Origin: Sedimenticola hydrogenitrophicus
GTDB lineage: Bacteria; Pseudomonadota; Gammaproteobacteria; Chromatiales; Chromatiaceae
DNA length: 64,000 nucleotides
Direction: 5' to 3'
NCBI RefSeq assembly: GCF_029017505.1
Contig: NZ_JAQGEI010000027.1
Span: forward strand, 1-64,000
The position numbers and the translations under genes are program-made. Position 1 is the first letter of the stretch, and each line of letters starts with the position of its first letter. This document shows, in pieces, positions 27,988-29,841 of the stretch. The notes beneath the pieces were generated by a model. The model was not told the DNA's origin, did not search any database, and worked only from the letters and a program-made list of their open reading frames with translations.

Positions 27988-29463
27988 TCAGGGTTTAGCA
28001 GCCGTCTGTTTCGGCAGATAGGCGTTCAGCCCATCCACCATCTGTTTGGCCGAGATGCCATGGGCGAACTTGGTGATGAATTCGCCGTTGGGCGCCATCA
28101 GATAGACGCTGGCCGAGTGATCCATGATGTAGAGATCGGGGTCGCCGCCCTCCTCGATCACCTTCTCGTACCTCACCTTGTAGGCCTTGGCCACCCGCTC
28201 GATCATCGCCTTGGTGCCGGTGAGTCCCACCAGTTCCTGATTGAAGTACTTGACGTAATTCTTCATCACCTGGGCATTGTCCCGCTCCGGATCCACGGTA
28301 ATGAAGTAGGGCTTGATCAGCGCGGCCCGGTCGCCGAGCATATCCAGCGCCAGCGACATCACCTGCAGCGAGGTGGGGCAGATATCGGGACAGAAGGTGT
28401 AACCGAAATAGAGCATCTGGTACTTGCCCAGCAGATCCTTCTCGGTGACCAGCTTGCCGTTGTGGTCGATCAGCATGAATTTGCCGCCGATCCGCGCGGT
28501 CTCCGGCTCGAACGACTCTGCGGCCGCCACCTTGACCGGTTCGCCGCTGTACTGCAGACAGCGCTTGATGGTCCGGGTGTTCTCCTCCATGAGCTGGAAA
28601 TAGAGTTCCGGCCCGGCGGCGATGGCACTGCCGAAGCTGTCCAGGATGCCGATATTGATATCGACCCCCCCGGTCAGCAGCGGCAGCTCCGGCATCGGCA
28701 TACCCCGTTCGGTCAGCAGACAGGCGTAATACCCCTCCTTCAGCCGGGCGTGACTCTGCAGCAGCTTGATCGCCTCCAGCGGCTGTTCCGGCGACTGCGT
28801 CAGCACCCCGCGGATCTTCAGCGCATAGGCCTGCTCGAAATACTGCAGGGTGTCAAAGTAGGCCATCCCCACGCCGCTTTTCAGCCCCCGATAACCGTAC
28901 TCCAGGCGGCGGTCCAGCTCGGCCATCCGCGCCAGCAGTTTGGCGCGGTTTCTCCTATAGAGATGGGCGCGACCATTGTCCGCGTCCATCAGCGCCCGGG
29001 CCAGTTCATCCACCAGGATCAGGGTATTGCGGCTGTCCATCCAGATAAACGGGTCACGCTCCGTCGAATCGTCGCTCTTGCTCCAGCGGGAGGGCAGAAT
29101 CTTCAGTTCCGGATTGTCCAGCAGGGTGACCACCTGCCTGCCCGACTGTTGCGCCCGGGCCACCGGTCCGATCAGAAACTTCTCCAGCTCAGGTCCCACC
29201 CAGATGACCAGGTCGGCGGTGGCCAGGCTGGCCTGCTGCGCCTCGCTCATCCGGTAGCCGAACGGCAGCGCATCCCCTTCCAACAGCAGCTCCGGTCCCT
29301 CGGTGCCAACCATCAGGCCGGCCAGGATGGAGTGGATCGGTTTGATGCTGGTAACCACGCGGAAGGCCGTCTCCGCCAGCAGAGACTGGCTGCCCAGCAA
29401 CAGCAGAAGCGCCAGCGATGAATGAAGAGTCGAACGGAAAAAAACTGCGCTGAATCTGTTCAC
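27988..29463 (-). CDS. Fusion of a ZnuA-like periplasmic domain with an SCO1/SenC copper chaperone domain
   Basis: From GTG 29463 (491 residues; GTG 29490 is the alternative) there is a signal sequence (about 1-31). A ZnuA/TroA-like domain (about 32-305: VVTSIKPIHSILAGLM, ADLVIWVGPELEKFL, GILDSFG) follows, then an SCO domain (about 325-480) with the copper-binding GYTFCPDICPTS (C358, C362) and the His in YIMDHSASVYL (H449). In the ZnuA part the three His ligands are Phe: LPFGY (F68), DPFIW (F139), AYFDTL (F203); the Asp ligand position remains (D275). So the N-terminal domain probably no longer binds zinc. A role in copper delivery to an oxidase is inference. The small periplasmic gene upstream ends 3 to 30 bases away. 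Confidence 0.8.
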   Translation of the reverse strand: MNRFSAVFFRSTLHSSLALLLLLGSQSLLAETAFRVVTSIKPIHSILAGLMVGTEGPELLLEGDALPFGYRMSEAQQASLATADLVIWVGPELEKFLIGPVARAQQSGRQVVTLLDNPELKILPSRWSKSDDSTERDPFIWMDSRNTLILVDELARALMDADNGRAHLYRRNRAKLLARMAELDRRLEYGYRGLKSGVGMAYFDTLQYFEQAYALKIRGVLTQSPEQPLEAIKLLQSHARLKEGYYACLLTERGMPMPELPLLTGGVDINIGILDSFGSAIAAGPELYFQLMEENTRTIKRCLQYSGEPVKVAAAESFEPETARIGGKFMLIDHNGKLVTEKDLLGKYQMLYFGYTFCPDICPTSLQVMSLALDMLGDRAALIKPYFITVDPERDNAQVMKNYVKYFNQELVGLTGTKAMIERVAKAYKVRYEKVIEEGGDPDLYIMDHSASVYLMAPNGEFITKFAHGISAKQMVDGLNAYLPKQTAAKP

Positions 29464-29493
29464 GAATACCTGCCCACCTGCGGTTGCCACGAT

Positions 29494-29841
29494 CTATTGC
29501 CCGGCGAATACGGAATCCAGTACCAGGATTGCCGCGTCGACCTGTTTGCTGAAGTCCGCTTCCACGGGGCAGCTCGCCTTGGTTTCAATGAATTTCAGGA
29601 AGGCGGTATTGGTTTCCTGGTCGAATGCCTCGCCATACTGCCGGCGCTTGGGAAGCGCCAGCACCAAGGCCTTTTTCATGCGCTGGGTTTCGCTCAGGAA
29701 ACGGCAGTTGAGTGCCACGCCGTTCAGTCCACCCAGCTGCTGTATGGCGTTGAACTGCTTGTCATCCATGCCTTCCGCCTGTGCCACGCCGTTGAACAAA
29801 AACGCCACCAGCATTGGCACAATCAACCTCAATCCCGTCAT
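29494..29841 (-). CDS. Small periplasmic protein co-encoded with the ZnuA-like/SCO fusion
   Basis: A 115-residue protein with a signal peptide (to about residue 22, FLFNGVAQA) and a helical mature part. Two Cys (in ALNCRFLSE and TKASCPVEA) could form a disulfide. It shares the transcript with the SCO fusion gene. I do not recognise the family. Given its partner, a role in the same envelope metal or redox step is the natural guess, but nothing in the sequence proves it. Confidence 0.6.
   Translation of the reverse strand: MTGLRLIVPMLVAFLFNGVAQAEGMDDKQFNAIQQLGGLNGVALNCRFLSETQRMKKALVLALPKRRQYGEAFDQETNTAFLKFIETKASCPVEADFSKQVDAAILVLDSVFAGQ

Follow-up and report, generated by a model that had tools for sequence, protein, structure and literature searches.

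What is the function of a putatively secreted protein that joins the fold of a zinc-binding protein, with its three His ligands replaced, to a copper chaperone domain? Such a protein is encoded in the window, the whole stretch of DNA analysed here, which covers 64,000 nucleotides of Sedimenticola hydrogenitrophicus (contig NZ_JAQGEI010000027.1, positions 1 to 64,000). The original prediction for this locus had described a ZnuA-like domain without its His ligands, fused to an SCO1 domain, and had considered it a repurposed binding protein that delivers or senses something for copper-site assembly. The substituted triad, the fusion to a chaperone domain, a small partner protein and the linkage to genes for removal of the greenhouse gas N2O together suggest that the fusion probably helps to supply copper to nitrous oxide reductase (NosZ), the main known enzyme removing N2O, and would be an undescribed factor of this kind. 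The features of the locus, given by window position, are as follows.

27988 to 29463, minus strand: coding sequence of the ZnuA-like/SCO1 fusion, 491 amino acids from a GTG at 29463, with the stop at 27988
29374 to 29463, minus strand: signal peptide, residues 1 to 30, assigned by inspection and a hydrophobic helix in the model
28558 to 29358, minus strand: ZnuA-like domain, residues 36 to 302, by Pfam and fold match
29260 to 29262, minus strand: F68 in the first ZnuA His column, by alignment
29047 to 29049, minus strand: F139 in the second ZnuA His column, by alignment
28885 to 28902, minus strand: fusion-specific motif EYGYRG, residues 188 to 193, at the end of the long helix 163 to 192, by alignment and model
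28855 to 28857, minus strand: F203 in the third ZnuA His column, by alignment
28639 to 28641, minus strand: D275 at the fourth ligand position, kept, by alignment
28489 to 28557, minus strand: linker, residues 303 to 325, mostly of low model confidence
28078 to 28488, minus strand: SCO1/SenC domain, residues 326 to 462, by Pfam and fold match
28378 to 28392, minus strand: CPDIC motif of the SCO half with C358 and C362, by alignment
28117 to 28119, minus strand: H449 of the SCO half, by alignment
29494 to 29841, minus strand: small partner gene, 115 amino acids, directly upstream of the fusion

Residues 36 to 302 of the fusion match the ZnuA family of Pfam with 1.5e-30, which exceeds the gathering score, and residues 326 to 462 match the SCO1-SenC family with 4.5e-48. 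An alternative upstream start, a GTG at 29490, would extend the protein to 500 amino acids. The AlphaFold2 model, built on an alignment of 57 sequences, has a mean pLDDT of 86.6 and a pTM of 0.62, and thus each half is well defined, while their mutual arrangement is uncertain; residues 307 to 324 have a pLDDT below 50. Foldseek aligned one half of the model with ZnuA of E. coli (2osv, TMt 0.89) and the other with Sco1 structures (6n5u, TMt 0.89; 1wp0, 0.92). Domain search and structure prediction therefore confirm both folds and the fusion as originally proposed. The proposed retention of the CxxxC motif and the His in the SCO half is likewise borne out, as C358, C362 and H449, which we take to be the usual SCO copper ligands, are invariant in the 57 aligned fusions (57/57).

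An assembly artefact at the ZnuA/SCO join, the main objection to such an architecture, is ruled out because relatives of the fusion are encoded at 62 further genome loci. The join is spanned in 60 of these; at the other two (L064 and L065) the gene reaches the contig end inside the ZnuA half. At locus L078 in genome G027, the fusion is split over two overlapping open reading frames of 293 and 201 amino acids, by either gene fission or a sequencing error. Opposite to the fusion gene of the window, the plus strand contains a 453 amino acid open frame (28060 to 29421), which is probably an artefact of GC-rich coding DNA.

The ligand positions of the ZnuA-like half were initially read as LPFGY, DPFIW and AYFDTL, with Phe in place of each His, in an otherwise persisting fold that keeps the fourth ligand. 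This reading holds for the window protein: F68, F139 and F203 occupy the three His columns of the alignment, D275 occupies the fourth, and the fold is preserved according to the similarity to ZnuA given above. An alignment error at these columns is ruled out, because standalone ZnuA-type proteins of the same bacterial family display H, H, H and D there in 18 of 18 controls, which were chosen non-randomly from the listed best standalone matches and include L082 to L084. The window genome's own ZnuA-type protein (L005, G000:C13:91494-92282) lies outside this control set and is more distant; it is the only other ZnuA-family match of that genome and aligns with E, H, H and D, i.e. with Glu at the first ligand column. 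Judged by its sequence as a ZnuA, the fusion fails, as it lacks the three defining His ligands. Its score against the ZnuA equivalog model PRK09545 (85.4 bits) is also below the cut-off of 268, which is weak evidence, because the standalone control L103 falls short as well (236.8 bits).

The idea of a repurposed ZnuA is supported by the closest standalone relatives outside the fusion clade, which retain the three His and the Asp. L103, the only standalone relative whose neighbours were profiled, adjoins ZnuB and ZnuC equivalogs. In contrast, tblastn searches (E up to 1e-5) detected no ZnuB relative in the 62 fusion loci and the whole window, and the ZnuC matches in the fusion loci and the window are 26-33% identical, like ABC ATPases generally.

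The loss of all three His applies to the window protein and not to the entire family. Sixty-three fusion rows were aligned: the window, L072, L081 and the 60 loci that remain when L064 and L065 are left out. Site 1 is occupied by Tyr in 31 rows, Phe in 13, His in nine, Trp in three and other residues in six, with one gap; site 2 by Phe (33), Tyr (20), His (8) and Leu (2); and site 3 by Tyr (22), Phe (20), His (18), Leu (2) and Gln (1). The fourth position is Asp in 49 rows and Asn in 14. The window protein shares the triple Phe with a few relatives, and across the wider family the sites are a mixture of Tyr, Phe, His and Trp with a few other residues. No His is present at the three sites in 40 rows, one in 16, two in two and three in five.

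Despite this variability, the sites remain largely aromatic, with Tyr, Phe, His or Trp in 177 of the 188 ligand-site cells of the 63 rows. In the 57-row alignment, the only columns of the ZnuA half that are variable (entropy at least 0.9) and yet contain at least 75% Phe, Tyr, Trp or His are 68, 70, 139 and 203, i.e. one neighbour (70) in addition to the ligand columns themselves. The codons for His, Tyr and Phe are stepwise one base apart, which eases such exchanges. Nevertheless, drift alone would be expected to introduce more non-aromatic residues at the three sites. Since the ligand columns vary yet stay Phe, Tyr, Trp or His, we interpret the aromatic triad as the outcome of selection that favours rings in the former cleft over metal binding.

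The five rows with three His derive from Thiodiazotropha loci (L038, L039, L045, L049 and L052), in which Asn replaces the Asp at the fourth position. They form a single group nested among Tyr and Phe rows in the tree, which, like the other trees here, is a quick tree with SH-aLRT support only. The fewest changes between His and other residues on the tree are four, two and nine for sites 1, 2 and 3 (62 rows). Members of this group might bind metal, with their His either regained or kept, two histories that the tree does not separate.

Thirty positions of the ZnuA half are fusion-specific, i.e. at least 85% conserved in 63 fusions and below 30% in 21 ZnuA proteins. Residues 165 to 193, around the long helix 163 to 192, contain 11 of the 30, and others include K121, R145, Q211, A212 and A214. 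The sole fusion-specific His is H167 (89%), located on the same long helix, and the Cys pair C248/C302 is common to the fusion and ZnuA. When the 63 fusions were compared with the 21 ZnuA proteins, no additional His or Cys residues emerged as a fusion-wide set capable of rebuilding a metal site; the possibility of a restored site was thus checked at the level of the alignment, and no fusion-wide replacement was found. The mean entropy is 1.54 in the ZnuA half and 1.30 in the SCO half. Beside sites 2 and 3 it drops to 0.72 and 0.86, whereas beside site 1 (2.27) and the fourth position (1.75) it is above the mean of the ZnuA half.

These data bear on the proposal that the ZnuA half still binds a ligand, which could be a metal where His is present, or else an organic compound or metal chelate held by the aromatic residues, and that it delivers or senses this ligand. 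The three-His rows (5/63), the presence of at least one His in 23 of the 63 rows and the strong conservation beside sites 2 and 3 would fit such a function. However, 40 rows lack any His at the three sites, the three-His group is nested among Tyr and Phe rows and carries Asn instead of Asp, no replacement ligand set extends across the fusions, and the residues beside site 1 are variable. We therefore regard a ligand-binding ZnuA half as rather unlikely. Because of the aromatic triad, the 30 fusion-specific positions and the lack of a new conserved ligand set, a docking or scaffold role appears to fit the evidence better than delivery or sensing. The long helix would have gained a conserved surface with many Arg and Tyr residues.

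The involvement in copper-site assembly, the second part of the original prediction, is supported by the neighbours of the fusion in a part of the loci, where genes for NosZ, NosD, NosL, PCuAC and SCO are found. At locus L028, the gene after the fusion encodes a Sec-dependent NosZ (NCBIfam TIGR04246, 877 bits, cut-off 625), and the next genes code for c-type cytochromes and NosD (383 bits, cut-off 300); a ferredoxin-type protein at this locus is closest to NapG and scores under that cut-off. At L040, the genes before the fusion code for a NapH-type protein, an ABC ATPase, a protein that matches NosL with 1.6e-06 and thereby passes the gathering score, and an ABC-2 permease. The survey of neighbours covered 63 loci, i.e. 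the 62 loci and the window; this set differs from the 63 alignment rows, which lack L064 and L065 and include L072 and L081. In 19 of the 63 loci, the fusion is directly followed by a NosZ gene of the same orientation, and in 24 the fetched flank includes one or more nos gene families. The remaining 39 flanks are without nos genes, and many of them are short and were counted as 'none'. The nos contexts sit in separate branches of the tree, with eight changes. Flank genes were called by a simple heuristic of length and codon position, which overlooked the small genes of L129 and L130, and flank gene families are single-linkage BLAST groups named via representatives.

The order SCO, PCuAC, small gene and fusion is found at three loci (L058, L105 and L055, the last with its SCO gene truncated where the contig stops), and the PCuAC identity was verified by Pfam in L058 and L105. 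A gene for a DsbA-like thioredoxin lies upstream in L105 and L012, and cd1-type proteins adjoin the fusion in L033 and L066. Two further gene families were observed in these neighbourhoods: a secreted-looking pentapeptide-repeat protein near the fusion at 16 loci, mostly in nos or cd1 contexts (family 9; L028:2387-3133, L066:6707-7477), and an apparently membrane-bound protein of about 395 amino acids in nos clusters (family 7; L028:10460-11644), which has no Pfam or NCBIfam match.

In the genus of the window, no nos family was found within flanks of approx. 8 to 10 kb of the window copy, L006, L007, L009, L011 and L012. The window genome (G000) has its nos cluster apart from the fusion on contig C41, with its own SCO and PCuAC genes after the nos genes. 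Two NosZ-type matches were observed in this genome (C3:92343-94052 and C41:12526-14316), one of Sec type (874 bits) and the other, whose 495 bits are below the Sec cut-off, possibly of TAT type.

The distribution across genomes was determined in an order sample of 210 genomes, the listed ones all belonging to one family. A Sec-type NosZ is encoded by 64 of the 75 genomes with the fusion and 32 of the 135 others (Fisher 1.6e-18, kinship ignored). At the genus level, counted by eye, it is present in 16/18 genera with the fusion versus 11/43 without (p 7e-6); this collapse to genera and the out-of-family carriers described below are the only phylogenetic control of the counts. The genome lists for fusion, NosZ, CoxB, cd1 and the small gene were compiled by hand from match tables. 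The 75 fusion genomes include four with partial matches (G192, G194, G197 and G200) and G027 with its split gene; the Sec-NosZ list excludes nine genomes whose sole matches score about 317-496 bits and retains below-cut-off NosZ fragments (such as those of G005, G009, G016, G076, G122 and G207).

NosZ co-occurrence alone was rejected as proof of the target, because cd1 nitrite reductase, an enzyme that has no copper, co-occurs as strongly (67/75 fusion genomes vs 42/135 others). The co-occurrence thus marks denitrification rather than NosZ alone. When the genomes are split by both enzymes, the fusion is found in 59/83 cd1-bearing genomes that have NosZ and 8/26 that lack it; for genomes lacking cd1, the corresponding figures are 5/13 and 3/88. 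Eleven of the 75 fusion genomes are without a NosZ match, eight of them less than 90% complete; those of high completeness are G013 (99%), G161 (100%) and G189 (93%). Conversely, the fusion is not required by NosZ, because 32 of the 96 Sec-NosZ genomes do not have it.

An alternative is a different client of the chaperone, namely the CuA or CuB site of cytochrome oxidase or another periplasmic denitrification protein, in which case the linkage to nos genes would be incidental. CoxB is indeed more frequent in fusion genomes (43/75) than in the others (31/135), and six fusion genomes without a NosZ match, including G013, possess it; the equal co-occurrence of cd1 points in the same direction. 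On the other hand, the CoxB match is missing in 32 of the 75 fusion genomes, and a tblastn search with one CoxB of the window's genome (E up to 1e-5) detected no relative in the 62 loci or the window, whereas a NosZ gene directly follows the fusion in 19 of these 63 cases. Beyond the family of the window, nine carriers of the small gene were sampled, and each of them has a NosZ match (9/9), which is above the cut-off in eight, in comparison to two of 21 other-family genomes of the same class, one of these two being the carrier G047. A client other than NosZ is therefore unlikely in our view. NosZ as the main client is proposed rather than established, because cd1 nitrite reductase co-occurs equally well.

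The small protein encoded directly upstream is the most constant feature of the fusion module and was missed by the original prediction. It is probably secreted; its predicted structure consists of an N-terminal signal-like helix and four more helices, with a pLDDT of 92-98 in the core block, and it contains two invariant Cys residues, C46 and C91. It has no family match in Pfam or NCBIfam, and a fold search against the PDB gave no match (best E 3.1). Gene calling placed it immediately upstream of the fusion in 56 of the 63 loci, and a profile search detected it in 74 of the 75 fusion genomes of the order sample; in G194, the only exception, the fusion is cut by the contig end. A supposed triple fusion of the small, ZnuA and SCO parts in L061 and L067 was rejected, as these long open reading frames overlap the small gene in another frame, a check that used the coordinates of G191 and G083, taken as the same genes.

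Nine genomes of the order sample contain the small gene without the fusion. In G005 (65% complete) and G021 the matches are partial, and in G222 and six genomes of genus g23 the small gene adjoins an SCO match, and the space is too small to accommodate a ZnuA half; no substituted ZnuA half was found in addition to the small protein and SCO in these seven genomes. A class-wide draw of 369 genomes contained the small gene in 11, nine of them outside the family of the window. Six of the nine have the small gene followed by the fusion, one of them cut by the contig. G047 and G334 have the small gene with an adjacent SCO gene, and in G526 both are combined in one open reading frame. Unfused ZnuA-like halves with the EYGYRG motif are encoded in G526 (L151, triad YFY) and G047 (L102/L080, FYH), and a more diverged unfused half with the triad R, R and A in G334 (L161:5628-6449). 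Because these three genomes hold a separate ZnuA half, apart from the small protein and SCO, the three parts tend to co-occur even when unfused, with G222 and g23 as exceptions for the ZnuA part. Single-frame small-SCO fusions without a ZnuA half were observed in two distant genomes (L120:7027-7884 in G222, and L132:6377-7270), and the unfused ZnuA-like gene of G047 adjoins genes for DsbA-like and DsbD_TM proteins.

That the ZnuA half is a decaying relic without its own role, riding on a working SCO domain, would agree with G222 and genus g23, and is nevertheless very improbable, considering its 30 fusion-specific positions, its mean entropy close to that of the SCO half and the survival of separate ZnuA-half genes with EYGYRG in G526 and G047 and in more diverged form in G334.

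How does this protein relate to known systems? With the ZnuA/TroA-type binding proteins (PF01297, cluster A-I), it shares the fold, the Cys pair C248/C302 and the Asp at the fourth position, and its nearest relatives are of ZnuA type, including one that is encoded in a ZnuABC operon. It differs by the lack of the three-His set in 58 of 63 rows and of a ZnuB relative in the flanks, and by its SCO domain and new conserved Arg/Tyr surface. Like the SCO1/SenC proteins (PF02630), it has an SCO domain with CxxxC and His, and a link to PCuAC in some loci; different from these proteins, it contains a ZnuA-derived N-terminal half, is accompanied by the small partner, and is linked to nos genes in 24/63 loci and to CoxB in none of those searched. 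A ZnuA-like domain joined to a second domain is also present in AdcA, where this second domain is ZinT and not SCO. AdcA (PDB 7jj9) is among the Foldseek matches of the fusion model, and its ZnuA-like domain is zinc-bound according to PDB entry titles.

According to a review, Paracoccus reduces less N2O at low copper when senC2 (Sco), pcuC (PCuAC) or Pden_4445 is lost; the review concludes that assembly of the NosZ CuA largely resembles that in oxidases, with NosL serving CuZ (PMC7558416). The Paracoccus denitrificans set of SenC2, PcuC and Pden_4445 is similar to the present module in its Sco and PCuAC proteins, which Paracoccus needs for N2O reduction at low copper, and differs in that the passages on this set describe no ZnuA half (PMC7558416). 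The ZnuA-SCO architecture is apparently new, as no description was found among the open-access papers listed, judged from titles and abstract openings, with subscription papers outside the scope.

Based on the SCO ligands, the PCuAC and SCO neighbours, the linkage to nosZ and the analogy to Paracoccus, the fusion would load the CuA of NosZ with copper or keep it reduced. The setting is probably that of periplasmic CuA centres in denitrifying Gammaproteobacteria, with the CuA of the Sec-type (clade II) NosZ as the most likely client. The N-terminal half would derive from the binding protein of a ZnuABC importer and would since have departed from zinc transport. The aromatic residues that replace the three His probably pack the old metal cleft shut, and the resulting pseudo-binding-protein may serve for docking or positioning, taking the SCO domain either to its client or to the 115 amino acid helical partner. 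The SCO domain would carry or reduce copper via C358, C362 and H449, the small protein would be a near-constant partner in CuA loading, and the fusion would act in one pathway with PCuAC and an ordinary SCO protein. While the folds, the substitutions, the copper ligands, the partner gene, the gene neighbourhood and the co-occurrence were observed directly in the data, the CuA target, the copper transfer, the docking and the locked cleft are the steps that we infer. In sum, we consider it somewhat probable that the fusion is a secreted SCO-type copper metallochaperone or thiol-redox factor for CuA assembly, chiefly of NosZ, with a metal-free pseudo-binding-protein as docking domain. A more specific version is offered only tentatively: the binding protein of a zinc importer may have turned into a metal-independent, permanently closed docking domain, which together with the two-Cys partner and SCO would constitute a dedicated CuA maturation factor for clade II NosZ, its three parts being fused in varying combinations, or unfused, depending on the lineage.

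To our knowledge, copper acquisition by Sec-type/clade II NosZ is poorly known. If the proposed function is correct, the three parts would provide a named set to test for NosZ copper acquisition, and a substrate-binding protein that lost its ligand site would have become a targeting domain for a metallochaperone. The small protein adds a conserved family without relatives in Pfam, NCBIfam or among PDB folds, and can serve as a gene marker for the module.
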